This document shows, in pieces, positions 37,904 through 64,000 of a stretch of DNA of 64,000 bases; the first letter of the stretch is position 1; each line of letters begins with the position of its first letter. Origin of the DNA: Paramicrobacterium humi (GTDB lineage: Bacteria; Actinomycetota; Actinomycetes; Actinomycetales; Microbacteriaceae). The DNA is taken from the NCBI RefSeq assembly GCF_900105715.1, contig NZ_FNRY01000001.1, forward strand, positions 1,860,001-1,924,000. The letters are read 5' to 3'. Made by a program: the position numbers and the translations under genes. The notes beneath the pieces are model-generated. The model did no database searches. It worked only from the letters and a program-made list of their open reading frames with translations, and was not told the DNA's origin.

Positions 37904-39093
37904 GAAGAGAACTCCCATCGGTCGATCCGACGCGTCTCGGGTAGCGCGTCGTTCATCAGGTCTGTGTGTTGAAAACTTCGAGCGAGCACGCGAGCGACCG
38001 CGCGGACTCTATCGCTCCAGTCGGGAACGTCAGGGTTGCTCCGGTCGGGACTGTGGCGTGCAATGCATCGCGCGACCGTGTCCGGGAACGTGTCGCGTGG
38101 GGCCACATCGAGATAGTCGTCCGGCTTACCGTCCCTGAACCCCGCGACTGGAGTACTGACAATCGGACGTCCGACAGCCAGATATTCGTAGAGCTTGAGC
38201 GGGTCGAGGCTGTCAGTAAATGGGGAGACGATGTGTGGCACGATGAGCGCGGCAGCGTGCTGGAGGTAGCCTGGGACCGTGTCCCAGCTTCGTGGACCGA
38301 GAAGTATGACGCCCGGTGTGTTCGCAAGTATGCTCGTATTCGAAGCGGACAGTGCATTCGGCCCCAGAAGAACGCACGCGCTACCTATAGCAGCAAGAGT
38401 TGAGCCGGTTCGTGCGACCAGATCGACATCGAGGCGGTCTTCATGGAGTGTGCCGACATACAAGGCGATATCTCGGTCGGGGAAGTCATCGGGTCGTTCC
38501 GCAGGCGTTTGGTAGCGCGCCACATCTACTGCATTGGGAATGAGGATGATATCGTCGCGCGCGTGGCGGCGGGACTTACGGAGAGCTTCTGAGCACACGA
38601 CCACCGAGGTGCAACTCTTGAGGAGGGAGGCGTCAGCCCGCACGATTCTTCGATGTTCTCGGCGGGTGCGCGCGGCCGCGAGCCAGTCGTCGGTTATGTC
38701 GTAGATGGTCGGGAGCGAGGCTCGCTCGACGATGCCGTACCACCCGGGGTCGTTGAGCCACATGAGGTCAGGTCGGAGACCCGCTCGACACAGGTTGCGG
38801 TGGAGAGCAGCTCTCATGAACAGGTCGGCGAATGGCCCGAGTATCCGGGGCAGCCATTTTGTCGGCTGGTAAAGGAACAGACGGCCCTCGTAGCCAGCCG
38901 CCTGCCGCAAGCCCCGCCCGCGAGCCGGCACACGCAGGTGAAGTGAGTCATGCAGGAGATCACGCGAAGGCTCGACAAAGACTACAGTTAGCTGATCGTC
39001 GGTACGTAGGAGACCGTCGAACAGGTACTGATTGCGCCGCCAGACATCGTCCCATGCTTCGAGCGACAGAACGAGGAGTGTTGTGCTGCTCAT
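37900..39093 (-). CDS. Glycosyltransferase, GT4-like
   Basis: A 397-residue GT-B-fold glycosyltransferase. The N-terminal domain opens with TLLVLSLEAWDDVWRRNQYL and the donor-side domain has IPNAVDVARYQTP, IALYVGTLHEDRLD and DPLKLYEYLAVGRPIVSTPVAGF, the usual E-x7-E-like region. It probably adds one sugar to the lipid-linked repeat unit in the cytoplasm. ATG at 39091-39093 overlaps the previous gene as ATGA, and its own stop overlaps the BY-kinase start the same way. Confidence 0.88.
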   Translation of the reverse strand: MSSTTLLVLSLEAWDDVWRRNQYLFDGLLRTDDQLTVVFVEPSRDLLHDSLHLRVPARGRGLRQAAGYEGRLFLYQPTKWLPRILGPFADLFMRAALHRNLCRAGLRPDLMWLNDPGWYGIVERASLPTIYDITDDWLAAARTRREHRRIVRADASLLKSCTSVVVCSEALRKSRRHARDDIILIPNAVDVARYQTPAERPDDFPDRDIALYVGTLHEDRLDVDLVARTGSTLAAIGSACVLLGPNALSASNTSILANTPGVILLGPRSWDTVPGYLQHAAALIVPHIVSPFTDSLDPLKLYEYLAVGRPIVSTPVAGFRDGKPDDYLDVAPRDTFPDTVARCIARHSPDRSNPDVPDWSDRVRAVARVLARSFQHTDLMNDALPETRRIDRWEFSS

Positions 39094-40154: not shown

Positions 40155-41509
40155 GTCACAGTCCGTACGTAGTTCACGGACAGCTGGCGAGAAGAATCGG
40201 GTTGCTCTAGCCCAGATCGGTCGTGAACAAAGGCTCCAACGCAGACTCCGGCCACGATCCACAACAGGGACGCCTGGCCCGCGACCCAGTAAAGGTCGAA
40301 CTGCGCTTGTACGAAACGTGCAACGACAACCGCGGCACCGACCGTTCCGTACGTCGGGTCGAGGCGCCAGAGATACCAGATGACAAGCGCAAACATGAGG
40401 AGAAACCCGATTAGGCCCACAATGCCAACCGACGACAACACTTCAAGTTCCGCATTCGGGGGCTGAAAACGAGCCGCGAAGCGATCCGTGTACCACCAGC
40501 GCAAGCCAACGCCGAAGGCCGGTGACTCGTGCCAGATGTTAAGCGATTCTTCGAACCAGTCAAGGCGTTGGTAAGCCGAGTTGAACTGATTGTCACTTGC
40601 CAGCTGGCTGCTCAACATCGAGATGCTGTAACCGAGAACTGGGATGGTGAGGAGGATCCCGAGCAGTGGCCGTCTGCGCGATGCTGCGCGCCTGCGCAGC
40701 CCGACTATTAGTAGCCCAGCGAGCAGTCCGAGCATGCTTTGACGTGACTGCGATGCGAAAATACCGCCGGCGAGCACAACGAGAGTGAAATATGACAGAT
40801 TGCGAGGGATAGCGAACCACGCAGGTCGACCATGGACGATCACGAATGCGGTCGCGAGCATTCCTCCAATAAGATTCTTGTGCAGTTCGGGGAGATATAC
40901 GGGCTCAAGCTCGTGATGAATGGCGAACGCGACGGCAGCCGTCGCGATCGCGGCCACCGCTATCCCCAGGCAGCCGAGCACATAAGCTCCGATGGCGTAT
41001 GAGCTTTTCCCGGTCCGTGCGATGGTGAAACCGACGAGGAGGCTGCCGATAACGAGCACGAACTCGTGCACCCACTCGACCGTGTTTTCTTGATAGGGAT
41101 TAAGTATCAGCGTCGGCAGAGCTGCGACGAGGTAAGCGATGCCAGCCCAGCAAAAAGGCCGCATCGCCGACATTCCTTTCGGTCGTACGAGAACCACCGC
41201 GGCAATTGTGGCGACGGCGAGGATAACGTCGGACACGCTTACGAAACCTCCGACTCTCGTCAGGACGAGCGTCGCCGGCACGGCCATCGCGACGATTAGC
41301 ATTGGCGTGCTGAGGAAGAACGAGAGCGCAAGCACTCCGATGGAGACGAACCACGCCAGACGCGTGTCCGACGTTGCGAGAACGCCAATCGCGGCGGCTA
41401 CCATCGCGATCGCTCCACACCAGGCGAGTAGTGAGCCAACACTTGTGTCCGCCTGTGGTGAGAGTGGGGTCCTAATGCTGAACCGCGAACGGCGCCGTAT
41501 CTGGTTCAT
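40151..41509 (-). CDS. O-antigen ligase / Wzy-like membrane protein
   Basis: A 452-residue protein with about eleven to twelve hydrophobic segments and a larger outer loop that includes RLDWFEESLNIWHESPAFGVGLRWW, the signature of the Wzy_C/O-antigen ligase family. In a Gram-positive polysaccharide locus it is most likely the polymerase that joins repeat units outside the membrane. ATG is shared with the stop of the upstream GT4-GT2 gene (ATGA). Confidence 0.9.
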   Translation of the reverse strand: MNQIRRRSRFSIRTPLSPQADTSVGSLLAWCGAIAMVAAAIGVLATSDTRLAWFVSIGVLALSFFLSTPMLIVAMAVPATLVLTRVGGFVSVSDVILAVATIAAVVLVRPKGMSAMRPFCWAGIAYLVAALPTLILNPYQENTVEWVHEFVLVIGSLLVGFTIARTGKSSYAIGAYVLGCLGIAVAAIATAAVAFAIHHELEPVYLPELHKNLIGGMLATAFVIVHGRPAWFAIPRNLSYFTLVVLAGGIFASQSRQSMLGLLAGLLIVGLRRRAASRRRPLLGILLTIPVLGYSISMLSSQLASDNQFNSAYQRLDWFEESLNIWHESPAFGVGLRWWYTDRFAARFQPPNAELEVLSSVGIVGLIGFLLMFALVIWYLWRLDPTYGTVGAAVVVARFVQAQFDLYWVAGQASLLWIVAGVCVGAFVHDRSGLEQPDSSRQLSVNYVRTVT

Positions 41510-43452
41510 GTCTTCAGGGACGCGAGTGGACCTCGCATGTAGAGGATGAGGCGGGCAAATGCTGAACGGCGACCAGCGCGCGAATGCGTCACCGAGCGGA
41601 TTCCTGCACCGAGCACCATGGCGGTGCGGAACACCTGCCAGCCGACTGTTCCGAAGTGCTTCCGCTGGTATGTTTCCAGGCTGGCGTGGAAGAGCCGGTC
41701 TCGGTGCGACGGGTCGGAGCTGGTGCCACCGCCGAGATGCAGCGCATCAACCCGGGCGACGTCGATTCGCCATCCGCGATCGACCGCGCGCTTCTGCCAA
41801 TCCGTCTCCTCCGCGTAGAGGAAGAAGCGCTCGTCGAACGGTCCGACATCCGCGATCGCCTCCGCGCGGAGCAGGAGCACGGACCCGATGACAAAACCGC
41901 GTGATGTGTTCCACCTGCCGAGACCGAACGCTTCGAGCCAAGCGCGGAGCGGGTTCGGGAATGGCCACCAGACGCGCGCCTCGACTCCAGACCGCGGGTC
42001 TCGCTGGGTGGCTCCGACAGCTCCGCGGACATTGTCCGCATGGAGGAGCTCATGCATGGTGATGACAGATGCCGGGCTGATTTGCGCGTCCGGGTTGAGA
42101 AGCAATACGTCGTCACCGCTGCTGCCTCGGGCACCGAGTGAGCGCAGCGCCGCGTTGACGCCTGCTGCGAATCCGACGTTCGCTCCTGGATCGATGTAAT
42201 GAGCACCATGCTCGAGAGCGATAGCTCGCGTTGCCTTCGAGGAACCGTTATCAACAACGGTCACAGGAAATGCGCGGTCAAGCGCGGAAAGAGACTGCGA
42301 AAGTATGTCGGGAGAGCCAAAGGCGACGACAACGACCTGGGGTAGACGTTGGGCTCCTGAGTTCCGGCAAGGAAGAACGGTCGCGTAATGCTCCGCATGT
42401 TGTTCGGCGACGCTTTCCCAGCTGAATCGTTGCACGTGCGCGAGCCCGTGCTTGCGCATCCTAATCCATTGCTCCGGTCGAAGGGCACGCGAGATTCCGG
42501 AGGCTAAGTCGACGTGGTCCGAGGGCCGGACGAGGATTGCGGCATCCTCAACGACATCGGCGATTGCTCCTGTGTGACTCGCGACGACCGGTACGCCCGA
42601 GGCCATGGCCTCTACGGCGACCCGGCAGAACTGTTCCAGCCAGTCGCGGGTCGGTATGGACGGTACCGCGATGACATCGAGTTCACGATAGCGCTCCGGC
42701 AGCTCGGCCCCGGTTGCGAAGCCAAGGAAATGCACGCGATCGCTCACCCCGAGGGTGAGCGCCAATTCTTCTAATTCCTCTCGGCTGCTCCCATCACCGC
42801 TTATTCGAAGCGTCCAGGACGGTTCGATCGCGGCGGCTCGGATCAGCGTTTCGACACCCTTGTGCGGCTCAAGCTGCCCCACATATCCGACAATGGCCTT
42901 TCCCGAAGGTGTGTCACGATCGATTGCATGAAAGTTCTTGAGGTCGACCCCGAGAGGTATGAGGGCTGGGCGTACCCGCAGTCCTTTCCGCGAGAGGATC
43001 TCGCCGGCCTTCTGATTGCACACGTAGGCTCCCGCAGCGTGCTTAAGCGCATAGGACTCAAACCACCGGAACGGGATGGGATATGACTTGTGAATGTTCT
43101 GAGCTGAGTAGAGCGTGTATGGCACGTTCGAACGGCGAAGCGCCCTAAGCGCGAGAATCTCCGCCGTAGCCAAGGAGCATGGCTCCTCGTGCAGGTCGAG
43201 TATGGCGGGTGTGCTTCCCAGTGCGCGCCAAATGGGTATCGGATTGTACAGAAAAGCATTCGGGTGCTTGCCAACCGTCCCAGCTCCTCGTACGAAAGTG
43301 TCGCCCTCCGTTGTGAGATGAACCGGGCTACCCCCTTCAGCCCATCGGCGTGCTGAGACCAGTTCGACATCCGTGCCATGGCTTCGCAGCATTCGCTCGC
43401 GTTCCCGCCAACTGGACACGACGCCATGATGTGCGATGCGCAGAACCTTCAT
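41506..43452 (-). CDS. Two-domain glycosyltransferase (GT4-GT2 fusion)
   Basis: A 648-residue fusion. Residues about 1-365 form a GT4 (GT-B) enzyme: IVGYVGQLEPHKGVETLI, LRISGDGSSREELEELALTLGV, FCRVAVEAMASGVPVVASHTG. Residues about 375-620 form a GT2 rhamnosyltransferase-like GT-A domain: VVVVAFGSPDILSQSLSAL, TVVDNGSSKATR, NVGFAAGVNAALR, LLLNPDAQISP and FDERFFLYAEETDWQKRA. One chain can thus add two sugars in succession. ATG at 43450-43452 follows GGATATCGAG. First gene of the five-gene minus-strand operon. Confidence 0.92.
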   Translation of the reverse strand: MKVLRIAHHGVVSSWRERERMLRSHGTDVELVSARRWAEGGSPVHLTTEGDTFVRGAGTVGKHPNAFLYNPIPIWRALGSTPAILDLHEEPCSLATAEILALRALRRSNVPYTLYSAQNIHKSYPIPFRWFESYALKHAAGAYVCNQKAGEILSRKGLRVRPALIPLGVDLKNFHAIDRDTPSGKAIVGYVGQLEPHKGVETLIRAAAIEPSWTLRISGDGSSREELEELALTLGVSDRVHFLGFATGAELPERYRELDVIAVPSIPTRDWLEQFCRVAVEAMASGVPVVASHTGAIADVVEDAAILVRPSDHVDLASGISRALRPEQWIRMRKHGLAHVQRFSWESVAEQHAEHYATVLPCRNSGAQRLPQVVVVAFGSPDILSQSLSALDRAFPVTVVDNGSSKATRAIALEHGAHYIDPGANVGFAAGVNAALRSLGARGSSGDDVLLLNPDAQISPASVITMHELLHADNVRGAVGATQRDPRSGVEARVWWPFPNPLRAWLEAFGLGRWNTSRGFVIGSVLLLRAEAIADVGPFDERFFLYAEETDWQKRAVDRGWRIDVARVDALHLGGGTSSDPSHRDRLFHASLETYQRKHFGTVGWQVFRTAMVLGAGIRSVTHSRAGRRSAFARLILYMRGPLASLKT

Positions 43453-43726
43453 CTCGATATCCAAATCGTGCACGATCTCGTAGCACGCGGCGACGCACAC
43501 GCGAGTAGCATCACACCTCTGCGCTCAGACAGGCATGGCGCATAGCGGGTTCCAGAAGCGCTCATGACCTCATCGTAGGTTCAAAGTGAGTGCTACTCAT
43601 ATACCCCCTTAAAGGTGAGGTGCTTCCTGGCACTTGACGTGCGAGAGTTCTCAGTAGCTCGACTCATGTCATAGCTGCCAAGTGATAAAACGCGTCCGAA
43701 CCTACGAGGCTGAAAGAGATTGGTAC

Positions 43727-44959
43727 ATGCCGCAAGCGCGAGTCATCATGCTCGACCACACCGGCCAAGAGGGTGGCGCCGAGCTGGCCATGGTGCGCCT
43801 CGCGGCTGAGCTTCGTCGCTGCGAGATCGACGTGCAAGTTCTTCTATTTTCGGATGGTCCGCTCAGGATTCGGCTCGAAGAACTCGGCATTCCCACGAGA
43901 GTGGAGCCACTCGGGATCCGCACAGTGGCGCTCTCTCGGGATATGCTCGGCTGGCGCCGCGCGATTCTCGAAACTGGGGCTGCGCTTCGGTTCTCGATCC
44001 GCATCGCGCGCGCCATCCGGTGTGGCAAAGCTGATCTCGTGGTCGCGAATTCACTTAAGGCTGCTTCGATTGCCGCTGTCGCTGCTCCAGCCGCGGGCCG
44101 TCCGTGGATCTGGCATTTGCACGATCGCCTGAGCGACGACTATCTTCCACCGCTTCCGCTTCGGGCATTGAAGATTCTCGCGGCCGTCGGCCCTGCCAGA
44201 ATCGTCGCCAATTCTCGAGCAACACGTGAAACGCTGCCCTCTCGCGCAAGGCGCCGATCGGCGGTCGTCTACCCGGGCTTCCGCGAAACGTGTGCTGCGC
44301 CGGCCTCAGATTCTTCCGCGGCAGCTGTGGGCATAGTCGGTCGTATTAGCCCCACGAAGGGGCAACTAGAGTTCATAGAAGCGGCTGCGCAACTCGCGCA
44401 TAGGTATCCGAACCTGCTATTTCGTGTCATTGGCGCGCCGCTGTTCGGGGAAGAATCGTACGAGCACACGGCTCGCGAACGCGCAACCGATTTGGGGATC
44501 GCGGACCGGCTGGAGTTCTGCGGCTGGGTCGAGGATCCGCTCGAGCAGATGAAGAGTCTGAGCGTCCTCGTCCACGCGTCGCCTGTGCCGGAGCCGTTTG
44601 GTCAGGTCCTCATCGAAGCGATGGCGGCGGGGGTTCCTGTTGTCGCGGCCGCTTCGGGCGGTGTCATGGAGATCCTGGACCCGACATCCCAGAGCGAGTG
44701 GGACGCCGCTGCGCATCTGAGTGTGACCGATGTTGGGATCCTCGTTCGCCCTGGAGATCCCGCTGCGCTAGCAAAGGCGATCGCCACCGTTCTCGACGAC
44801 CCTGTAGCTGCGACTCAGCGAGTGCAGAAGGCGCGTTCCAGCCTCGCTCGCTTCGACATCGAGCGAACAGCCGCTGGTGTCGCAGAAGTCTGGAGTTCGA
44901 TCCTGCCCGCACGGCGCTGGTTCGCGTCCACTCGATCCACAATCAAAACAGGAGGATAA
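43727..44959 (+). CDS. Glycosyltransferase family 4
   Basis: A 410-residue GT4 enzyme. It begins RVIMLDHTGQEGGAELAMVRLA, a common GT4 opening, and has VGIVGRISPTKGQLEFIEAA, ADRLEFCGWVEDP, and HASPVPEPFGQVLIEAMAAGVPVVAAASGG. ATG at 43727 follows AAAGAGA; an in-frame GTG at 43682 adds 15 residues without a good site. It is followed two bases later by the PqqD-like gene in the same direction, an unusual pair. It diverges from the five-gene operon across about 270 nt. Confidence 0.9.
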   Translation: MPQARVIMLDHTGQEGGAELAMVRLAAELRRCEIDVQVLLFSDGPLRIRLEELGIPTRVEPLGIRTVALSRDMLGWRRAILETGAALRFSIRIARAIRCGKADLVVANSLKAASIAAVAAPAAGRPWIWHLHDRLSDDYLPPLPLRALKILAAVGPARIVANSRATRETLPSRARRRSAVVYPGFRETCAAPASDSSAAAVGIVGRISPTKGQLEFIEAAAQLAHRYPNLLFRVIGAPLFGEESYEHTARERATDLGIADRLEFCGWVEDPLEQMKSLSVLVHASPVPEPFGQVLIEAMAAGVPVVAAASGGVMEILDPTSQSEWDAAAHLSVTDVGILVRPGDPAALAKAIATVLDDPVAATQRVQKARSSLARFDIERTAAGVAEVWSSILPARRWFASTRSTIKTGG

Positions 44960-44961
44960 CG

Positions 44962-45216
44962 ATGAAACTTCGAACTGATGGAGTGACCTGGCAAGAGATC
45001 GATGGCGAGCTGGTGATACTCGACATGCAGACGTCCGTCTATCTCACCGCGAATGGCGCGGCGACCGTGCTGGCTAAGATGCTCGTCGAAGAGCGGTCGT
45101 TTGAGGAGCTCGCAGAGGCGCTCACCCAGCATTTCGGGATCGACCAAGCGGTCGCGGAAGCGGACGCGCGCAACTTCATCGAACAATTGCGTGAGAAGTC
45201 CCTGCTCGCAGCTTGA
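44962..45216 (+). CDS. PqqD-family protein (RiPP recognition element, lasso B1-like)
   Basis: An 84-residue winged-helix protein of the PqqD/RRE family: TWQEIDGELVILDMQTSVYL, NGAATVLAKMLVEE, and FEELAEALTQHFGIDQAVAEADARNFIEQLREKSLL. Such domains bind the leader of a ribosomal peptide and present it to modifying enzymes; stand-alone forms include B1 of actinobacterial lasso clusters. ATG has a strong AGGAGG site and starts 2 nt after the glycosyltransferase stop. The lasso-type enzymes lie 18 kb to the right, and no other RRE is seen in the window, so it may be their partner. That link is inference. Confidence 0.85.
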   Translation: MKLRTDGVTWQEIDGELVILDMQTSVYLTANGAATVLAKMLVEERSFEELAEALTQHFGIDQAVAEADARNFIEQLREKSLLAA

Positions 45217-45221
45217 GTGGG

Positions 45222-46106
45222 CTACTCATCGTCGATCGCTGATGCGACGATTGCGAGAAGTGCTTCGCTGATGCGAGCGGCGCCTTCGGGCGTGAGATGG
45301 CCGGGATCGACGGCGATCGTGCGATCTAGTGCGAGATATCGCTCGGTGTCAGAGCGTTTGGTTTCGACGATTCCGTCGGAACCAGCGGACTCCATTTTTG
45401 CGATGTCGAAGAGTCGCCCTGTATCGCCATAGGCTTCACGGACCAGCTCGTTGAAATGGTGCCGCGCTACGTTGTGTCGCGGGTCCAATTCGCTGTCGCG
45501 CCCCAGGAAGACCTTGGCACGCGTGACTAAATCGGGCTCGTACATAAGCGGGGCGGTCGCGAAGATGAAGGTGACTTCGGGAAAGTCTCGCTCAAGGTCG
45601 GCCAAAGTCCGGTTGTATGCCTCAAATAGCGCCTCTGTGTCCGTGCTGGCGTTGATATCGATGTAGCAGAGTTTGAGAATCGCGACCTCGATGTCGGCGG
45701 CCAGGCCGGCCCGGATGATTTGATCGAACGCGGCGATCTTCCCCAGCGGGTCACCGTTGGTGCCGATCGGACTCTCGATCAAGGTCGCGTCCTGTGGAAC
45801 GGTGTCGCCTGTGAAAGTCGCGACGATCGGCATCATGTCGGTTGCGTCGGAGAAGACGTCGGGAACGGCATCGATGAGACTTTGGCCGACCGACTGATGA
45901 GCAAAGAAGATGCGGGTCTCCTTCACTGCCATTGCTTGCTCAGCGCTCAACGTCGGGACTGAGTATTGCTGTCGCTCGGCGATTGCGTTCGGTCGCAGCA
46001 GGAGCATTGAACCTCCGATTGTCGCAAGGGTGATCACCGAGGCGATCCCAATAATGATGCGTCGCACAACTCTGCCAATCTGTTCTTGCGAGGACGGATC
46101 CGTCAA
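45222..46106 (-). CDS. SGNH/GDSL-hydrolase-like membrane-anchored protein
   Basis: A 294-residue protein with one N-terminal hydrophobic segment (RIIIGIASVITLATIGGSMLLL), then an outside domain. It has FFAHQSVGQSLIDAVP, with the presumed nucleophile Ser after HQ, the block ILKLCYIDINAS, and the C-terminal DPGHLTPEGA, which fits the DxxH of SGNH esterases. A role in removing or moving acyl groups on the polysaccharide is plausible. Start is TTG at 46104-46106 with GGAG very near. Its 3' end faces the PqqD gene with a 5-nt gap. Confidence 0.7.
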   Translation of the reverse strand: MTDPSSQEQIGRVVRRIIIGIASVITLATIGGSMLLLRPNAIAERQQYSVPTLSAEQAMAVKETRIFFAHQSVGQSLIDAVPDVFSDATDMMPIVATFTGDTVPQDATLIESPIGTNGDPLGKIAAFDQIIRAGLAADIEVAILKLCYIDINASTDTEALFEAYNRTLADLERDFPEVTFIFATAPLMYEPDLVTRAKVFLGRDSELDPRHNVARHHFNELVREAYGDTGRLFDIAKMESAGSDGIVETKRSDTERYLALDRTIAVDPGHLTPEGAARISEALLAIVASAIDDE

Positions 46107-46301: not shown

Positions 46302-46922
46302 GTGGGACACGACAACTCTCGGGGGCTCATTTCAGTCATCCGAGAGGACGTCGCAGTCAACGGCAACCTCCTTGTCGCGGCTACGCAGATGCTGATCCTG
46401 TATCGCTTCGGCTACTGGATTCGCGATCATCGGCGAGCACGGCTGACGCGAATGTTGGGTAACAGGTTGTATGCGGCTCTCTATCCATACGTTCGCAATG
46501 TCCTGGGGTTCGACATTCCCAGCACAGTGCTGCTCGGCCGCCGCGTGAAGTTCGCGCACCAGCACGGCGTTATATTCCACCCGCTTGCCCAGATAGGCGA
46601 CGAGTGCTTGATCAGGCACAATGTGACGATTGGTGTCCGTTGGGAACAGGGCAAGCCGGGACTCCCGCCTCCGCCTCCTCGCATTGGAGCGCGAGTGCAT
46701 GTGGGCGTGAACGCGGTGATCCTTGGAGGTGTTCGCATCGGCGACGACGCCGTGCTCGGCGCCGGGACCATCGTGACGAAAGACGTGCCCTCCGGTGCAA
46801 GCGTGGTGCCGGCTGCCTCCCGCATTCTGCGTCTGCGCGCCATGGATGATAGCGACAGGGAGCAGAGCGCAGCTCAACGCCGCGATTCCGCCGCGACCTT
46901 CGCTGAAGCCGACGGCGCATAG
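46302..46922 (+). CDS. Serine O-acetyltransferase-like hexapeptide protein, probable frameshift at 5' end
   Basis: A 206-residue left-handed beta-helix acetyltransferase. It has LISVIREDVAVNG (CysE-like lead), FHPLAQIGDECLIRHNVTIGVR and VNAVILGGVRIGDDAVLGAGTIVTKDVP. Homologues in polysaccharide loci acetylate sugars or make O-acetylserine. The only start in this frame is GTG at 46302 without a binding site. An ATG at 46243 with GAAGGG upstream opens the neighbouring frame and reaches the same point; one extra G in the GGGGG run at 46321-46325 would join the two. So either a frameshift, a slippery switch or a sequence error is likely. Confidence 0.75.
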   Translation: MGHDNSRGLISVIREDVAVNGNLLVAATQMLILYRFGYWIRDHRRARLTRMLGNRLYAALYPYVRNVLGFDIPSTVLLGRRVKFAHQHGVIFHPLAQIGDECLIRHNVTIGVRWEQGKPGLPPPPPRIGARVHVGVNAVILGGVRIGDDAVLGAGTIVTKDVPSGASVVPAASRILRLRAMDDSDREQSAAQRRDSAATFAEADGA

Positions 46923-56343: not shown

Positions 56344-56592
56344 GTGGTTGACGACACGATTCTGATCGACGAACTCCGCTCACTTATTATGTCCGAGCTA
56401 GTACCGCTGGAGGATGACGAGCTGACGAACGAGACACCGCTCGTCGACAACGTGCTCGATTCTCTTGGAATTGCGGAAGTCGCGACGTTCATCGAAGACC
56501 AGATCGGGCGACCGCTCGAGCCGGACGAAGAGACTCGAGCGACATTCGCGTCCGTGAACAGTATTGTCGATTTCATTAACGCGAATCGCTGA
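56344..56592 (+). CDS. Acyl carrier protein
   Basis: An 82-residue carrier protein. The phosphopantetheine site is Ser 40 in DNVLDSLGIAEVATFIEDQIG, with typical acidic helices on either side (ETPLVDNVLDSLG). A GTG start follows TAGGAGG at 7 nt. It is not beside fatty-acid genes: the next genes are an amidotransferase and an NAD-synthetase-like enzyme, and an AMP-forming ligase lies in the facing operon. It probably carries an acyl or aminoacyl group for polysaccharide or peptide modification. Confidence 0.9.
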   Translation: MVDDTILIDELRSLIMSELVPLEDDELTNETPLVDNVLDSLGIAEVATFIEDQIGRPLEPDEETRATFASVNSIVDFINANR

Positions 56593-56596
56593 TGGC

Positions 56597-58558
56597 ATGT
56601 GCGGTATCGCTGGCGTCATCGACGTCGATGGGGTGACACTGAAGCCAGATCCGGCTGACTTACTGCCGCGAATGCTAAGGGCCATTGAACACCGTGGGCC
56701 CGATTCAAGTACATGGCGCCAATCGGGCGCGGCAACTCTCGGGACCGTTCGTCTTGCGATGGTGGACAAGCCCACCTCGCTCCAGCCTATGCCGGATCGC
56801 GAGGGCCGCTACCTCCTCTGCTTCAACGGAGAGATCTACAACTTTCGGGAGCTACGTGCCGAGCTCGAAGCATCGGGCGCCGTGTTCGCTACCTCCGGAG
56901 ATACCGAGGTGCTTCTGTATGCTTTGGTCGAGTGGGGCGTCGATGCGCTACCGCGTCTCCGCGGACAGTTCGCGTTGGCATTCTGGGACTCGGTTTTGCG
57001 GACGCTCCTTCTAGCAAGAGATCGGTTCGGCATCGTCCCCTTGTTCTGGACACACCCATCTGGCTCGAGGCTTGGGTTTGCGTCACAAGTGAGTGCGCTT
57101 GCGGAAGCGGGGTATGACATTCGGCTTTCGCTGAACGATGTGGTGGATGCTGGTGTTTTGTGGGGAGTTCACCCCGGGCATTCGTGCTTCGCTGGAGTCC
57201 GCTCGGTCCCACCCGGCGGATACGTGCAGCTTGGCGGGGGAGACGTTCAGGAAGGGCTGTACTGGGAGTTCGCGTTTGCGGAAGAGCGGAACGTCGCGCC
57301 GTTAGCAGAACAGGCAGCAGAGCTCGCGCGCCGACTTCGTACCGCCGTAGCCCGCCGCGTGCCCGCCTATGGCGACCCGGCCGTCCTCTTGTCGGGAGGC
57401 CTGGACTCAAGCGCCGTGCTCGCCATACTCCGGCGAATGGAACCAGCATCCACTATCAATTCCTTTTCGATTCGGTTCGCCTCGAGCGTGCTCGATGAAG
57501 AACCCTTTCAACAACTCGCTTCGTCTGCGTTCGCGACAGTGCATGACGGTGTGTGCTGCGACGATGAGTCTGTGGCAGCGGCTCTCGCCGAAGTCGTGGA
57601 GCGCGCCGAGTCGCCACTCGTGAGAACCGCCCCAGCCGCATCCGTTCGGTTAGCCGCACATATTAAAGGGAAGGGCATACGCGCTGTCCTGAGTGGGGAA
57701 GGTGCAGATGAACTGCTGTGCGGGTACGACTTGTTCAAAGTCGCGCGCATCCGCTCGCGTTGGGCGACTAACCCCGACGCGGCCGACCAGCTCACCGAGC
57801 TTGAAAATGTGATGGCTCAGCAGAAGCAGCTCGGCCGAGCCATCGAGCGAGCGTTCTACGAGCAGGGCGTCGATGACCCGGACGACCCGATCTTTTCTCA
57901 CCTCAACCGCTGGGCGGCATCACATCGGATAACGCAATATCTCCTTCCGCAGCTTCGAGAGCTGTTCCCGCTCGAGCGAATCCTTGACGGTGTTCGGGAG
58001 CGCCTGCCGAAAGCATCGCTGTCGTGGTCATCTGTCGAACGAGCGCAGCTTCTCGAAGTGCGATATTTTCTCGCGCACTCGCTGTTGGCCAACCAGTGCG
58101 ACAGACCGTACATGGCACACAGTATCGAGGCCAGATATCCGTTCCTTGACGAAGACGTCGTCGACTTCGCCCTCACGCTTCCCGAGAGGTCGAAGCTTGA
58201 GGGCACGAACGAGAAGCGTGTGCTCAAAGAAGCCATGGCTGACGACGTTCCCGAAGCGATCACCGGGCGGGTCAAGCAGCCATACACCGCACCCGAGGGT
58301 GACATCTTCCGTTCCCAGGCCGGCGACGAACTCCTGACTGTCTATGCATCGCCGAGGGCCCTGCGGTCGGTGGGGATCTTCGATGAGAAACGCGTCGCCT
58401 GGCTCATCGCAAAGCTCAAGCGAGGGCGCACCAGCTTTCACGACGATCTCGCGCTGCTGTGGGTCGTTTCGACTCAAATTCTCGGCACGCGGTACGGGGT
58501 CGCCGACTCCGTATCGCCTGCTGCCGCTTCACAGATGATCGGAGTACCACGTGGCTGA
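56597..58558 (+). CDS. Asparagine-synthase-like glutamine amidotransferase (AsnB family)
   Basis: A 653-residue two-domain enzyme. It begins Met-Cys-Gly, so Cys 2 becomes the N-terminal nucleophile that releases ammonia from glutamine; HRGPDSSTW and CFNGEIYNFRELR follow. The synthetase domain has the ATP-pyrophosphatase loop LLSGGLDSSAVLA and LSGEGADELLCGYD, and the late EARYPFLDEDVVDFAL. In surface-polysaccharide loci such enzymes amidate sugar or ACP-linked carboxylates. It starts 5 nt after the ACP stop and overlaps the next gene by 8 nt. Confidence 0.92.
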   Translation: MCGIAGVIDVDGVTLKPDPADLLPRMLRAIEHRGPDSSTWRQSGAATLGTVRLAMVDKPTSLQPMPDREGRYLLCFNGEIYNFRELRAELEASGAVFATSGDTEVLLYALVEWGVDALPRLRGQFALAFWDSVLRTLLLARDRFGIVPLFWTHPSGSRLGFASQVSALAEAGYDIRLSLNDVVDAGVLWGVHPGHSCFAGVRSVPPGGYVQLGGGDVQEGLYWEFAFAEERNVAPLAEQAAELARRLRTAVARRVPAYGDPAVLLSGGLDSSAVLAILRRMEPASTINSFSIRFASSVLDEEPFQQLASSAFATVHDGVCCDDESVAAALAEVVERAESPLVRTAPAASVRLAAHIKGKGIRAVLSGEGADELLCGYDLFKVARIRSRWATNPDAADQLTELENVMAQQKQLGRAIERAFYEQGVDDPDDPIFSHLNRWAASHRITQYLLPQLRELFPLERILDGVRERLPKASLSWSSVERAQLLEVRYFLAHSLLANQCDRPYMAHSIEARYPFLDEDVVDFALTLPERSKLEGTNEKRVLKEAMADDVPEAITGRVKQPYTAPEGDIFRSQAGDELLTVYASPRALRSVGIFDEKRVAWLIAKLKRGRTSFHDDLALLWVVSTQILGTRYGVADSVSPAAASQMIGVPRG

Positions 58559-59510
58559 AGGAAACATCGCGGCTGTGCATCTTGAGGATCCCGAAGCGAC
58601 GACGGATGAGCTGGTCGACAGCATTCGGCAGGCTGCGCGGCGGTTCCGGCGGCGCGGAGCTGTTGTCGCGCTGAGCGGCGGCATCGACTCATCGACCTGC
58701 GTGGGTCTGGCCGTGCGCGCGCTCGGTGCTCAACGTGTTCGGGCGATATCGCTCCCTGACAAGGAGAGCTCCACATCGACAGTAGGGTTCGCGGAAGAAG
58801 TCGCGGATGAGTTCGGCGTTTCACTCGAGGTGCGCGACATCACTGCCCCTCTTGCTGCCCTTGGTGCATATGCTGACCGGCTCGCCGTTGTTCGTCAATA
58901 CGAGCCGGATTTCGACGACGCCGCCGGCGATCGGTTCTCCGTCGAGTTCGAGACGGCCACGGGCGAGGGCGAGCGGCTGCAGTCGTTCTGCCTCAATGTC
59001 GAACGAGGTGATCGTCGCACTCGCCACCGCCTCGGCGGACGCGACTTTCTTGCGATCATGGCCGCCACGAATTTGAAGCAGCGACTTCGAATGGCGTCAA
59101 CGTATCGAATTGCTGACGAAGAGAACCTGCTCGTCATCGGAACGTCGAACAGGCTGGAGATCGATCAGGGCTTCTTCGTGAAGCACGGCGACGGCTGCGG
59201 CGACGTATTCCCCCTTCGACCCCTCTTGAAAAGCCACGTCTACGACGTTGCAAAGGTGTTGAAGGTTCCGCAGGCCGTGATCGAGCGGGCTCCCACAACC
59301 GACACGTTCAGCGCCGAGCAGACGCAAGAAGCGTACTTCTACGGCACATCGATCGAAACAGGCGACCGACTGTGGCTCGGCTGGCATGAGGGCGAGCCCG
59401 CCGCAGCGGTTGCCGCGGAGCTCGGCATGAGCGAGAGTGACGTTCAGAAGTTCTTCGACACGTACCGTCGGCGTTCGGAGTATGCCGAGTACCTTACGAC
59501 GACAATCTGA
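58551..59510 (+). CDS. NAD-synthetase-like (NadE family) ATP-pyrophosphatase, divergent paralogue
   Basis: A 319-residue PP-loop enzyme with VVALSGGIDSSTCVGLAVRALG, GTSNRLEIDQGFFVKHGDGCGDVFPLRPLLK, and APTTDTFSAEQTQE. Housekeeping NadE has a PTADL...QTDE-like sequence; here the region is altered (TQE), so the substrate is probably not deamido-NAD. It lacks its own glutaminase domain. It may use ammonia to amidate an adenylated acid, perhaps with the adjacent AsnB-like protein. GTG start at 58551 overlaps AsnB. Similar paralogues occur in O-antigen loci. Confidence 0.82.
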   Translation: MAEGNIAAVHLEDPEATTDELVDSIRQAARRFRRRGAVVALSGGIDSSTCVGLAVRALGAQRVRAISLPDKESSTSTVGFAEEVADEFGVSLEVRDITAPLAALGAYADRLAVVRQYEPDFDDAAGDRFSVEFETATGEGERLQSFCLNVERGDRRTRHRLGGRDFLAIMAATNLKQRLRMASTYRIADEENLLVIGTSNRLEIDQGFFVKHGDGCGDVFPLRPLLKSHVYDVAKVLKVPQAVIERAPTTDTFSAEQTQEAYFYGTSIETGDRLWLGWHEGEPAAAVAAELGMSESDVQKFFDTYRRRSEYAEYLTTTI

Positions 59511-59525
59511 AACGGGAAACCGCAG

Positions 59526-61001
59526 CTACACGCCGGCGGGGGCGTCTGCCGGGGTGAGCCGGATGGCCTTTCCAGAACGCGTTTTCGGTAGAGAATGCAC
59601 AACCTCAACCGAGCGAATGATGCCGCGAGGCTCAAGCGCTGTGCGCACGGCACGGCGCACGGCGGATTCATCGGCAGATGCACTAAGTATCAGCCGAAGG
59701 AGGCACTGGGCGTCCTCGGCACGGGAATCAGGAATTGCGCGCGCGTCGAGAACGCCATCGAATCTCATGGCTTGTGCCTCAAGGCGTACGACAGATACGC
59801 GGTTTCCGCGGAAGTTCATCATCTCGACCTCGCGGCCCGTCACCATGAGGTTCCCCGCATGGTCGAGGTGGCCCAAGTCACTTGTGGTGAAATGCTCGCC
59901 GCGCTCTCGGACGGGAGCGCCAAGGTAGCCGATCATCAGGCTGGGACCCGTTGCTCGGATGAGTCCCTCTTCTCCGACGGACAACACGGAGCCCTTACTG
60001 TCGACGATGTCGATATGCGTGCCCGGCAGAGGAAGGCCGACAGACCCGGACGGTGCGCCGTCTCCGTATCGCCGCACAGCAGCGCGTGCGGTGGTCTCCG
60101 TGAAGCCGTACATCAGGTAGAGCGCCCCGTCGAACCCCGGGAGCAGCTGGTCGATTTCCTCATCCACTAGCCCTCCGCCGGCAAGGAACAAATGGCGAAG
60201 ATCAGGAGCGGTGCTCGTTCCCAGATCCATGCCCCGACGAGACATGAGTCTCAAAAAGTAAGGGACGCAGGCGAAGATGGAGACGTGGTGGCGACCCATT
60301 CCTTCAGCGAGGCTGCGCGATGGCGGCCCATCGGGGAGGAACACGATCGGGACGCTTCGAGCAAGGGCCATGAGCGACATCGATAACCCGAATGAGTGTG
60401 TCGTCGTGAGAACCTGCCCAAGACGATCTTCGGACTGCCACGGGAGGGCGGTACGAAGCATCGCTGTCAGATTTGCGAGAACATTGGCTCTCGACAGCCG
60501 AACGCCCTTCGGCTGCCCGGTGGTTCCGGACGTGAAGAGGACCATCGCTTCATCGGGATCTGAATCGCAAATGCCGGTGAGGGGGCTGCTCTCGAGGCCG
60601 GCGAAGCCAGCCGAGCCGAGCCGTGTGATCTCTGTCCCGTGGACGACGAGGCGGCATCGCGCCCGCAGAGCAAGCTCACGTGCGTCCTCTGTGAACTCGC
60701 CGACCCCCAACATGGCGAGAGAGCGGCCACTCATGAGGCTGGCGATTACGACGATAAGAGCATTGGCATCTCGTGAATCGACCAAGCCCACGCGCTCATC
60801 AGGCGTGACGTTCTCTATGAAGTGGTGCGCAAGCCGTCCTGCCACGCCGAACAGCTGATCTCGGGTTGTGACGCCGTCATCGCCGATGATCGCCGCCGCA
60901 GAACCGGCGTGGCCGCTTCCGACGAGCGTGCGCACCAGCAGATCATCGAGCAGCATCTCCTCCGGGGGAGTCGAGGTGATTTCTGATATGAGCGTGTTCA
61001 T
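59526..61001 (-). CDS. AMP-forming acyl/aryl ligase (ANL superfamily)
   Basis: A 491-residue adenylate-forming enzyme. The AMP-binding loop is MVLFTSGTTGQPKGVRLS (near residues 153-170), the adenine site YGFTETTAR, the hinge TSDLGHLD, and the catalytic Lys region PKTRSGKAIRL at the C-terminus. It activates a carboxylic acid as acyl-AMP and may load it on the ACP encoded in the facing operon. ATG at 60999-61001 overlaps the nucleotidyltransferase stop (ATGA), so it is part of the lasso-type operon. Its 3' end lies 15 nt from the NadE-like gene. Confidence 0.91.
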   Translation of the reverse strand: MNTLISEITSTPPEEMLLDDLLVRTLVGSGHAGSAAAIIGDDGVTTRDQLFGVAGRLAHHFIENVTPDERVGLVDSRDANALIVVIASLMSGRSLAMLGVGEFTEDARELALRARCRLVVHGTEITRLGSAGFAGLESSPLTGICDSDPDEAMVLFTSGTTGQPKGVRLSRANVLANLTAMLRTALPWQSEDRLGQVLTTTHSFGLSMSLMALARSVPIVFLPDGPPSRSLAEGMGRHHVSIFACVPYFLRLMSRRGMDLGTSTAPDLRHLFLAGGGLVDEEIDQLLPGFDGALYLMYGFTETTARAAVRRYGDGAPSGSVGLPLPGTHIDIVDSKGSVLSVGEEGLIRATGPSLMIGYLGAPVRERGEHFTTSDLGHLDHAGNLMVTGREVEMMNFRGNRVSVVRLEAQAMRFDGVLDARAIPDSRAEDAQCLLRLILSASADESAVRRAVRTALEPRGIIRSVEVVHSLPKTRSGKAIRLTPADAPAGV

Positions 61002-62209
61002 AATCTTGACTCCTCCTTGGACTCGGAGTGGCGAGAGGTGGTTGCTTTTGGCGTCGCAGACAGGAGCGACTTGGCGGCGTTGGTGAGGTATGCGTTGCGT
61101 GCACGGGGATCTGGAACATCATCATCGAGCGAGCTAGCATCTGGCCCGTTCCGTCGAACGCGCGCCTCGATTCGGCGGACGTCAATCCACTGCCACGCTG
61201 CCGAAGTCATCATGTTGGCTATGTTGTCGCGAGCGCTTGCGTAATTGATGCCCGAAAGGGAGGCATCCCCAGGCAGGCCGGGGAACGGCCGGGTCGCATC
61301 GAGGTGTGCGGCAAGTCGACCTGCAAATGATCTTTGAGCCCGCACACGCAGTTCCGAGGGAAGCGGAAGTTCAACATTGAATGTTCGCTCTGTTCGCGCT
61401 AGGACGAGGGCGATGGGAGTCGAAGCAGAAGCGCGACGCGCACGATCATGCAGAGCCTCCCAATCGACGTTCTTATCGAGGGCCGTATGCAGCACGTCGG
61501 CGATCCACACGAGCCGGTTGGCTCCAGATTGTGCTGCGTGGAAGCCAACGTGAAGAAGCAGATCAGTGGGATCGAATGCGGGAATGGATACGCCGGTCCC
61601 GAGGGTGACACGGCGCGATCGTGACAACATCTCCTGAACGTCGAATGGAAATGCTCGGCGCGTACCCGGCGTAATCGAAATGCTCCAGTGCAAGTCGAGC
61701 GGTAGCCCGGAGGGACCGCGGAGAGCCAGTTCTGCGCGTCCCGTCCTGAGCAGTTCTGGCCAATTGCGATCGAGTAGCGTGAAGCCCTCACCCTCAAGCG
61801 CTTCGAGTGCGATACCGAAGTCAGCGGGACGTACTATAACGTCCAAGTCGCCGTATTGACGCATGTCCGCATGCGGCCAGGCGCAGTCCGCTAAGACCGG
61901 TCCTTTAGAGACAACCCATTCCACCCCATTAGCCGCAAATGAATCACTGATGATCCTCAAGTCATGACTGGCTTGCATCTGACGCAAGAGCTGATGGTGG
62001 CGCGCGCGGTCCAAGACCCTTAGCCAGTCATGAGGCGCGCTGGGTGCCGATCGCACTCGGCGCCACACAGCCGGTCCGATCCGGTGAAGCTGCCCGGCCG
62101 CGCAAACCTCCTGGATCGTGCTCTGCTCGAGACCGTCAGGGAGATCGCCGTCCATACACATAACGCTCTCGATTAGAAGCTCAGCGAGTGGCCGCAACTT
62201 CGTTTTCAT
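60998..62209 (-). CDS. Nucleotidyltransferase-family protein (lasso-cluster N type)
   Basis: A 403-residue protein of the NTP_transf_5-like group. The metal site is GDLDVIVRPADF near residue 120, preceded by VEWVVSKGPVLADCAWP, and DLLLHVGFHAAQSGANRLVWIADV follows. Members accompany HPr-kinase-like genes in some lasso-peptide clusters (PsmN-like), where they act on the peptide, and also occur in polysaccharide loci. ATG at 62207-62209 is set by the ATGA overlap with the kinase gene. The open frame upstream of it is not coding. Confidence 0.85.
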   Translation of the reverse strand: MKTKLRPLAELLIESVMCMDGDLPDGLEQSTIQEVCAAGQLHRIGPAVWRRVRSAPSAPHDWLRVLDRARHHQLLRQMQASHDLRIISDSFAANGVEWVVSKGPVLADCAWPHADMRQYGDLDVIVRPADFGIALEALEGEGFTLLDRNWPELLRTGRAELALRGPSGLPLDLHWSISITPGTRRAFPFDVQEMLSRSRRVTLGTGVSIPAFDPTDLLLHVGFHAAQSGANRLVWIADVLHTALDKNVDWEALHDRARRASASTPIALVLARTERTFNVELPLPSELRVRAQRSFAGRLAAHLDATRPFPGLPGDASLSGINYASARDNIANMMTSAAWQWIDVRRIEARVRRNGPDASSLDDDVPDPRARNAYLTNAAKSLLSATPKATTSRHSESKEESRL

Positions 62210-63132
62210 GAGTCCAGCTCCTGAAACAAAGCCTCCGTCACGGCCGGTGGAAACGGTGGCCCCCAGGGAATGCGTGCAGCAATGACCGGAATGTTTTGCG
62301 CGAGCGCTGACGCTTCGCGGAATATCGTTTTGACGACGGTCGGATCGTTCCACCCCATCAGCCGAGGGAAGTTTAGGAGCGCGAGCGTGGCATCCATCTG
62401 TCGCAAGCGTTCGAAACGCAGCGCTGATCCGTCGCGTGTGGGCATGGGAACCAGAATCGCCCGGAGCGGCGGCTGGAAAACAGAAGAGTAGCGGGGGGCA
62501 ACGACGTTCCGCTCGTCGGCGCTGAGGCGGCGTCGGGCGCCTTTCAGGGAGGCTGCGAGCTCGGCGGCCCCCGAGCGAAGTCGCAGTTCGCCTGAGCCTC
62601 GACGCACGCGAGGCAGCTTGTCGGCATCATCGACGACAAGGACATCATCGGTAACGGCCGCTGCACCTTCGGTGCAGAAAAGAGTCGCCATGGTTGTCTT
62701 GCCTTGGCCAGAGTGCCCGATGAATGCAATCGCTTGCCCATCGACCTCGACAGCGCTCCCATGAAAAACCGGCGTGCCGCGCAAATACAGAAGTAAGGAA
62801 AGGAGCGCGCCGGTCGTCATGACGGCGTCCATTCCTTTTGGTGCACTCGTGTGAAGCCTGAGCTCTACATCGCAGAGGTTCGGCTGGATGAGGTAGTCAC
62901 AAACGGCGTGGATCCGGAAGTGAATCGCTCCGTCCGAGCGCCTGACGACGGTGTACCAGGGTTCCTGAAGTACGAGATCGAGAAGCGTTTCGCCGTCAGG
63001 CTGGGGGTCCCAATCTTCAATCACGGGACCGGTATGCACGCAAACATCAGGGAGCGGCGAGCGGTCCCCGCCGGTTTGATGCATTTCAAAATCCGTTTCA
63101 ATTCCGAGTCCGTACAGCACTGCGTGACTCAT
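62206..63132 (-). CDS. HPr-kinase-like protein (lasso-cluster K type)
   Basis: A 308-residue kinase with PVFHGSAVEVDGQAIAFIGH and the P-loop GHSGQGKT at about residues 139-146, then VTDDVLVVDDADKLP, as in HprK-related kinases. In lasso clusters such as pseudomycoidin and paeninodin these kinases phosphorylate the C-terminal residue of the precursor. ATG at 63130-63132 has GGAGG upstream and shares ATGA with the B2 gene. It lies between B2 and N, the same neighbours as in kinase-bearing lasso clusters. Confidence 0.88.
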   Translation of the reverse strand: MSHAVLYGLGIETDFEMHQTGGDRSPLPDVCVHTGPVIEDWDPQPDGETLLDLVLQEPWYTVVRRSDGAIHFRIHAVCDYLIQPNLCDVELRLHTSAPKGMDAVMTTGALLSLLLYLRGTPVFHGSAVEVDGQAIAFIGHSGQGKTTMATLFCTEGAAAVTDDVLVVDDADKLPRVRRGSGELRLRSGAAELAASLKGARRRLSADERNVVAPRYSSVFQPPLRAILVPMPTRDGSALRFERLRQMDATLALLNFPRLMGWNDPTVVKTIFREASALAQNIPVIAARIPWGPPFPPAVTEALFQELDS

Positions 63133-63587
63133 GAGATCCTCCAAGGTTCAGAAAGAACGAGATATCGATCCGACCCCTCTGGGTCGAGGCTTACGCCGTC
63201 CACTTCGACCCACGCGTGGGCTTCGATGGTTCCGCCCGATTTGGCCACACCAATTCGAAGTACAGGGCTGTGACGTCGCAGGAGGTAGCCTCCGACGATT
63301 GCGCGCCGCAAGCAGGTTCCGTTGAACGGGCCGTGGCGCAGCAATCGCCAAGCCGTGTCGAGCTTCTCAATATCGCGAGCGGATAACGATTCGGGCGTGT
63401 AGGTTGCTCTCGGCGCAGAGCTCCCGGTCAGGCCGAGACGCAGGTGTCCGAGCCTCGCAGCGCGGTCAACGCCTCCTCCACGCAGTGCCAGCTCGACGCG
63501 CATCGCAATGGCGCCGATGACGAGCATGTCCGTCCAGCGTCGCGGAGGAAAGGAAAGCACGGTGCGGATGCGCTGTTTAAGAGGCAT
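63129..63587 (-). CDS. Lasso peptide B2-type transglutaminase-like protease
   Basis: A 152-residue protein of the B2/McjB C-terminal family, which removes the leader of a lasso precursor. The putative triad is Cys 92 in NGTCLRRAIVGGYLLRR, His 124 in EAHAWVEVDG, and Asp 135 in SLDPEG. The N-terminus has RWTDMLVIGAIAMRVELALR. ATG at 63587 is assumed; it overlaps the cyclase stop by 11 nt and has no clear ribosome site, as expected if coupled. The length fits stand-alone B2 proteins. Confidence 0.88.
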   Translation of the reverse strand: MPLKQRIRTVLSFPPRRWTDMLVIGAIAMRVELALRGGGVDRAARLGHLRLGLTGSSAPRATYTPESLSARDIEKLDTAWRLLRHGPFNGTCLRRAIVGGYLLRRHSPVLRIGVAKSGGTIEAHAWVEVDGVSLDPEGSDRYLVLSEPWRIS

Positions 63588-64000
63588 GCGGCACCAGGGG
63601 AAGGCTGTTTGCAGCGAGCCAAGCAGCATGCAGGCTCAAGCCACTTAACGTAGAAGGTCGCGCCTTGAGCCATTCTTGTTGAAGAGCGCCTGCGTCAATT
63701 GAATCGTGATCAACACCTTTTCCAGACCAATGCTCGGCGAATTCTCGTTCCGGCTCCATCCATCGGGTCTCATTGAACGCTGCTTTCGTGGGCCGGCTCA
63801 GGACAACGTCGGGCAGAAGATCGTGGAAGAGGTAGCGCATCATTTCTGTCCTGCTCCCGAGCCCGAGCATTCCACCAGCGCCTTCGAGAGCGCTGATGAA
63901 ATCGGCATTCTCAAAAGGATTGACAATCGCATGTCCATGAGCTTTCACGACCTCTTCGAAGTTTCGGCGGCCAACGAGGGCGGGGCGCGACGTGGCAATT
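63577..64000 (-). CDS. Lasso cyclase-type asparagine-synthase-like protein, 5' part beyond window
   Basis: The last 140 codons of an asparagine-synthase-fold protein. The visible region reads AHGHAIVNPFENADFISALEG, GSRTEMMRYLFHDLLPDVVLSRPTKAAFNETRW, and LQQEWLKARPSTLSGLSLHAAWLA, which matches the C-terminal part of actinobacterial lasso cyclases (McjC/C type) better than housekeeping AsnB. The frame is open through the right edge. It is directly followed by the B2 gene with an 11-nt overlap. A precursor-peptide gene, if present, would be expected to the right of the window. Confidence 0.82.
   Translation of the reverse strand, partial: IATSRPALVGRRNFEEVVKAHGHAIVNPFENADFISALEGAGGMLGLGSRTEMMRYLFHDLLPDVVLSRPTKAAFNETRWMEPEREFAEHWSGKGVDHDSIDAGALQQEWLKARPSTLSGLSLHAAWLAANSLPLVPHAS

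Follow-up and report, generated by a model that had tools for sequence, protein, structure and literature searches.

A phospho-lasso peptide operon of Paramicrobacterium humi and the probably separate AMP-forming ligase coupled to it

In the pseudomycoidin pathway the kinase PsmK phosphorylates the C-terminal Ser of the lasso peptide, and the addition of one or two hexoses to this residue depends on PsmN (PMC9266682). Lasso kinases have been described as carrying the motif H...GxxGxGK(T/S)...DD (PMC9266682, PMC10368454), and paeninodin-like clusters of Bacilli have already been reported in capsule loci, up-regulated together with an exopolysaccharide gene, where their role is called unknown by the authors (PMC13381572). 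Here we describe an operon of this type from the actinobacterium Paramicrobacterium humi, together with the adenosine monophosphate (AMP)-forming ligase gene that follows it. Both are located at the right end of a stretch of 64,000 nucleotides (C1:1860001-1924000; genome size 3.36 Mb), which is referred to below as the window.

In transcription order, the minus strand at this end of the window carries genes for a cyclase (C), a leader peptidase (B2), a kinase (K), a nucleotidyltransferase (N) and the ligase, all five of them intact and of the families that a sequence-only reading of the window had assigned to them. That reading had also advised a rightward extension in search of the cyclase start and a precursor, and in the sequence of the same genome both were found past the window edge, with C starting at 64728 and the precursor gene lying directly upstream. 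Because the cyclase start and a signature-bearing precursor are present, we conclude that precursor-C-B2-K-N is a real, overlapping phospho-lasso operon of the paeninodin/pseudomycoidin type with a divergent ABC exporter. Its genes, the ligase and the detached B1 gene are the following (positions in window numbering):

65117-66946, plus strand, outside the window: MsbA-like ABC exporter, divergent from the precursor operon (family matches, recurrence in relatives).
64779-64928, minus strand, outside the window, upstream of C: precursor of 49 amino acids, MMAYESPRIREVGRFSDVTL/GRHLDFDFDDGIYVWGVPIPAGDGHKGSS (NF033521, 29.1 bits against a cut-off of 19).
63577-64728, minus strand, of which 63577-64000 inside the window and the start beyond it: lasso macrolactam cyclase C, 383 amino acids (PF00733, 64.5 bits).
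63129-63587, minus strand: leader peptidase B2, transglutaminase-like, 152 amino acids (NF033537, 54.7 bits against a cut-off of 33; PF13471, 55 bits).
62206-63132, minus strand: HprK-like lasso kinase K, 308 amino acids (HGSAV...GHSGQGKT...TDD shared with relatives; PF07475, 20 bits, below the cut-off).
60998-62209, minus strand: nucleotidyltransferase N, 403 amino acids (PF14907, 128 bits; the last ~17 residues are absent in the nearest relatives).
61002-61022, minus strand: ribosome-binding site of the ligase, AAGGAGGAG (from the sequence; the N tail reads through it).
59526-61001, minus strand: AMP-forming acyl/aminoacyl ligase, 491 amino acids, catalytic Lys in ...TRSGK... (PF00501, 147 bits).
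44962-45216, plus strand: B1, a PqqD-type recognition element for ribosomally synthesized and post-translationally modified peptides (RiPP recognition element, RRE), 84 amino acids (PF05402, 53.7 bits).

The C and B2 genes overlap by 11 nt, and the sequence confirms the ATGA overlaps that had been read between B2 and K, between K and N and between N and the ligase. The earlier proposal of a phosphorylating lasso-type operon is likewise upheld, both by the precursor and by B2, which scores above its curated cut-off. A profile built from 18 cyclases led to 79 loci, in which genes were called with a simple codon-based caller, while the junctions in L072, L073, G606, G720 and G755 were read from the sequence. 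In the three closest operons (L057, L058 and L059; Microbacterium sp. MPKO10, Micropruina glycogenica and Microbacterium ulmi) the divergent ABC gene is followed by precursor, C, B2, K and N in this order, and most actinobacterial loci among the better matches keep the C/B2/K/N set; the gene arrangement is therefore not a product of chance.

The precursor open reading frame (ORF) sits behind a good ribosome-binding site and has homologues in related loci. Its leader shows YxxPxI at positions -17 to -12 (Y-17, P-14, I-12) and T-2 and is followed by G+1; this spacing agrees with that of published lasso leaders (PMC10368454). The core starts with Gly1, contains Asp7 and Asp9 as possible ring residues and ends in ...GSS; an acidic residue at position 9 is also found in both nearest Microbacterium precursors. 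The precursor thus combines the features of the paeninodin type: the leader with Thr at -2, Gly1, Asp/Glu at positions 7-9, and a C-terminal Ser as candidate kinase target. Among 60 related precursors, collected as ORFs with a ribosome-binding site near cyclases, the C-terminus is Ser in 52 and SerArg in 6. For some relatives the ring residue could not be assigned, since in certain Georgenia cores an early Asp occurs only at position 10, counted from the Gly that follows Thr-Leu. In two such loci of Georgenia/Oceanitalea (L060 and L062, 9600-9800) the sole early Asp stands at position 10 after Gly1, which points to a ring or a cleavage site of unusual kind. Jiangella and Amycolatopsis loci (L084, L090, L106 and L113) have two different precursors in each cluster, and several tandem lasso-leader-like ORFs were observed in a locus from an Acidimicrobiia metagenome-assembled genome (L134, 6300-7000).

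The His-Lys-Asp-Asp motif of the window kinase is complete and H...GxxGxGK(T/S)...DD is kept in its relatives, next to the weak PF07475 match. From the Ser-ending precursors, this motif and the precedent of the pseudomycoidin K and N enzymes, we infer a lasso peptide product that is phosphorylated and probably also glycosylated. The cyclase consists of an ATP-pyrophosphatase domain alone; it lacks the glutaminase domain and corresponds to the synthetase half of AsnB, and its family is short. The motif SGGRDSS is invariant in the cyclase alignment (A1), and the best folds for its AlphaFold model (pLDDT 82) were TsnB9, beta-lactam synthetase and asparagine synthetase. A profile search for a solved lasso cyclase returned none, only AsnB and beta-lactam synthetase being matched. 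Judged by its sequence, the enzyme belongs to a distant, short cyclase group.

No RRE was found inside the operon. B1, the only PqqD-type match of the genome, lies elsewhere in the island, 18 kb from the operon and behind a glycosyltransferase gene; its best NCBIfam matches are lasso PqqD models, with scores below the curated lasso B1 cut-offs. The glycosyltransferase-B1 pair (43682-45216), in which the RRE of the lasso pathway adjoins a sugar gene, is also adjacent in Microbacterium ulmi. The idea that the event which brought the ligase had also separated B1 from N was rejected as too simple, because in Microbacterium ulmi B1 and the same glycosyltransferase are likewise found ~9 kb from N.

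The earlier reading had placed the ligase in the lasso operon. Its overlap with the last gene, N, stands, but fixed membership of the operon is not supported: the three closest operons end at N, with no ligase after it. The ligase gene is convergent with plus-strand genes for an acyl carrier protein (ACP), AsnB and NadE, the end of NadE lying 15 nt from that of the ligase gene. Homologues of two further genes of this module, a transferase and a GDSL gene, are found at 45-47 kb in the window, adjoining B1:

56344-56592, plus strand: module acyl carrier protein (weak NCBIfam ACP matches, DSLG site; 68-74% identical to the module ACP of G606, G720 and G752).
56597-58558, plus strand: AsnB-like amidotransferase with glutaminase domain, 653 amino acids (PF13537, PF00733; TIGR01536, 380 bits).
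58551-59510, plus strand: NadE-like ammonia/amide ligase, 319 amino acids (PF02540, 144 bits; the copies adjoining the ligase in G606, G720, G752 and G755 are 66-69% identical).
45222-46106, minus strand: secreted SGNH/GDSL-like protein, displaced module partner (34-43% identical to module proteins of G606, G720, G752 and G755).
46302-46922, plus strand: hexapeptide (serine acetyltransferase-like) transferase, displaced module partner (46-47% identical to the ligase-coupled gene in G606, G720 and G755; PF00132).

The four-gene block with the ligase convergent to NadE (56344-61001 in the window) is also present in genomes G606, G720, G752 and G755. In G606 and G720, which belong to another family, its ACP, AsnB, NadE and ligase are 68-71%, 61%, 68% and 48-49% identical to those of the window, respectively, and the lasso family was not found in these two genomes, where only weak matches at their AsnB position were obtained. 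Their ligase gene overlaps an upstream hexapeptide transferase gene by ATGA, with GDSL and AcpS genes nearby (the GDSL-like protein of G606 matches PF13472 below the cut-off). In Propionicicella, GDSL, transferase and ligase genes converge on the run of ACP, AsnB and NadE on a contig different from that of the lasso genes, while in Micropruina the module lies ~30 kb from the lasso genes in a single polysaccharide island with a gene content largely matching that of the window island. In the ligase tree the window ligase groups with the module ligases of G606, G720, G752 and G755 (support 100/100), and the NadE tree gives the same two clades as the ligase tree. The closest solved relatives of the ligase are adenylation domains of non-ribosomal peptide synthetases and oxalyl/malonyl-CoA synthetases. 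In Microbacterium ulmi, whose genome lacks this NadE, a ligase-like gene ~13 kb from the lasso cluster was discarded as a module gene, since it represents a different member of the family, and the weaker ligase matches near lasso loci L084, L087 and L095 fell outside both module clades.

The ligase is most likely part of this neighbouring acyl-carrier pathway and was joined to the lasso operon by gene rearrangement. The ~17 C-terminal residues that the window N carries beyond the end of its relatives translate the ribosome-binding site of the ligase (AAGGAGGAG), which suggests that a rearrangement put the module ligase behind N, the simplest reading of the sequence at this junction. As the ligase now stands behind N, the two are probably co-translated.

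As a whole, the locus is probably best explained as a phospho-lasso operon with a co-resident but separate ligase module. According to this explanation, the operon would make a lasso peptide of the paeninodin/pseudomycoidin type: B1, although encoded 18 kb away, would bind the 49-residue precursor through its YxxPxI leader, K would phosphorylate the C-terminal Ser, B2 would cleave after Leu-1, the short cyclase would link Gly1 to Asp9 (or Asp7), N would probably glycosylate the phosphate, and the product would be exported by the divergent ABC protein. The AMP-forming ligase would serve a separate function in an ACP-AsnB-NadE-ligase(-hexapeptide transferase-GDSL-AcpS) module which, to judge from its protein families, may activate a carboxylic acid or an amino acid, probably with the ACP as acceptor, and whose most likely role is to decorate the polysaccharide that the surrounding island produces. 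The ligase would have come to lie behind N through a rearrangement within the island.

Several observations weigh against this explanation. On the lasso side, the cyclase is far from the curated lasso cyclase models NF033535 and NF033561 (13 and 30.3 bits against cut-offs of 525 and 300). Such a distance, and the fact that other systems, too, have AsnB-like, HprK-like and PqqD-like genes, would suit a cyclase/B2/kinase set of polysaccharide enzymes that never process a peptide, yet a precursor with the full leader signature immediately precedes the set, as it does in most related loci, B2 scores above its cut-off and the best B1 match is a lasso PqqD model, so that we consider this highly improbable. 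On the ligase side, Nocardioides glacieisoli, which belongs to the second module clade, has its ligase ATGA-coupled to B1 at the head of the lasso operon, with the rest of the module on another contig. In Nocardioides SYSU D00778 ligase, GDSL-like, AcpS, B1, precursor, C, B2, K, small ACP-like, AsnB and NadE genes form one run on a single strand, mostly with overlapping genes. In an order sample of genomes, a lasso cassette was moreover found nearby in 3 of the 4 other NadE-bearing ones, compared to 18 of 391 (p ~5e-4, uncorrected for shared descent). Because of this association and the related ligases inside two Nocardioides lasso operons, the co-residence of lasso genes and module may be functional. 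The Nocardioides ligases would fit the earlier proposal that the lasso product receives an activated acyl group, with the ligase activating, through the ACP, an acid attached to the lasso itself to give an acylated phospho-lasso; the ATGA coupling of N and ligase and the precedents of Lys-acetylated albusnodin and Tyr-acylated Snou-LP (PMC13352647) speak for it as well. An ATGA junction alone, however, is no proof that an enzyme tailors the product of the operon. The ligase occurs with its module in two lasso-free genomes and is missing from the three closest operons, and the lasso operon contains no coupled acyltransferase gene. An acceptor Lys is not conserved among the cores of loci with the module (L073 and L091 contain no Lys, and at the position of the L041 Lys there is Arg in L048), which leaves the acylated lasso unsupported, and almost identical cores are found in Occultella, with no ligase or NadE match, and in Pseudactinotalea, with the module. 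Literature searches returned no lasso cluster with an acyl ligase. This proposal was thus not borne out, and we regard it as unlikely.

The polysaccharide setting invites a further explanation, in which the phospho-lasso is linked through N to polysaccharide sugars and this polymer is also modified by the ligase module, giving one surface glycoconjugate. Polysaccharide-type genes were found within 10 kb of 41 of the 60 lasso loci and in none of 40 controls, which were stretches chosen at fixed distances in the order-sample genomes and Micropruina; these counts are an estimate, since the queries were island genes of the window itself. The PsmN-dependent hexose on phospho-Ser (PMC9266682) and the co-regulated capsule loci of Bacilli (PMC13381572) point in the same direction. 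On the other hand, co-location is not linkage, each part also occurs alone, and no such conjugate was found in the literature searched, which makes this explanation rather improbable. That the recurrent interleaving of phospho-lasso and ACP-ligase-AsnB-NadE genes in Actinomycetota reflects one joint pathway, towards a lasso-exopolysaccharide glycoconjugate with a ligase-supplied acyl or aminoacyl/amide group, appears doubtful to us.

The association of lasso and polysaccharide genes as such is not novel, the same embedding having been published for Bacilli (PMC13381572). In the literature searched we found no account of its breadth across Actinomycetota, of the short cyclase group or of the carrier-protein module. 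With the actinobacterial pattern, genera such as Nocardioides and Microbacterium become suitable for testing whether lasso peptides are linked to surface polysaccharide. Two further genes of the island were observed: a polysaccharide co-polymerase/tyrosine kinase (35666-37918) whose C-terminus resembles a low-molecular-weight phosphatase (...VLFVCSANECRSPFAEE...) and whose two parts are matched by two separate genes in Micropruina, and an apparent fusion of glycosyltransferases of GT4-like and GT2-like type (41506-43500, 664 amino acids), kept in Micropruina and Propionicicella.

Among described systems, the exosortase A (XrtA)-associated set of ligase TIGR03098 and amidotransferase TIGR03108 resembles the module in combining an acyl ligase with an AsnB-like amidotransferase in a polysaccharide setting, but the window proteins score 95 and 298 bits against cut-offs of 592 and 817, so that the ligase is not a member, and a NadE-like protein is added here. 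Albusnodin and Snou-LP (PMC13352647) set a precedent for lasso acylation, whereas the present operon has neither an acyltransferase nor a conserved Lys acceptor. The bsf lasso cluster of Bradymonas sediminis (PMC10368454) has the same A, B1, B2, C, D, K and N content, with Ile at -2 and phosphorylation at Ser3 where Thr at -2 and a C-terminal Ser are found here. The clusters for lasso peptides and linear polyphosphorylated peptides (LPP) in capsular polysaccharide loci of Bacilli (PMC13381572) share the kinase, the nucleoside triphosphate (NTP) transferase, the MsbA-like exporter and an RRE amid glycosyltransferases; LPP clusters are recognised by a SipW-like peptidase and the lack of a cyclase, whereas this operon, from a different phylum, contains cyclase and B2 and no signal-peptidase-like gene. 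The closest likeness in content is to the paeninodin/pseudomycoidin clusters of Bacillota (PMC9266682, PMC13381572), with their YxxPxL-type leader, C-terminal Ser, B1, B2, C, ABC exporter, K and N, from which the operon described here differs in its occurrence in Actinomycetota, its cyclase without a glutaminase domain, its detached B1 and the ligase coupled behind N.

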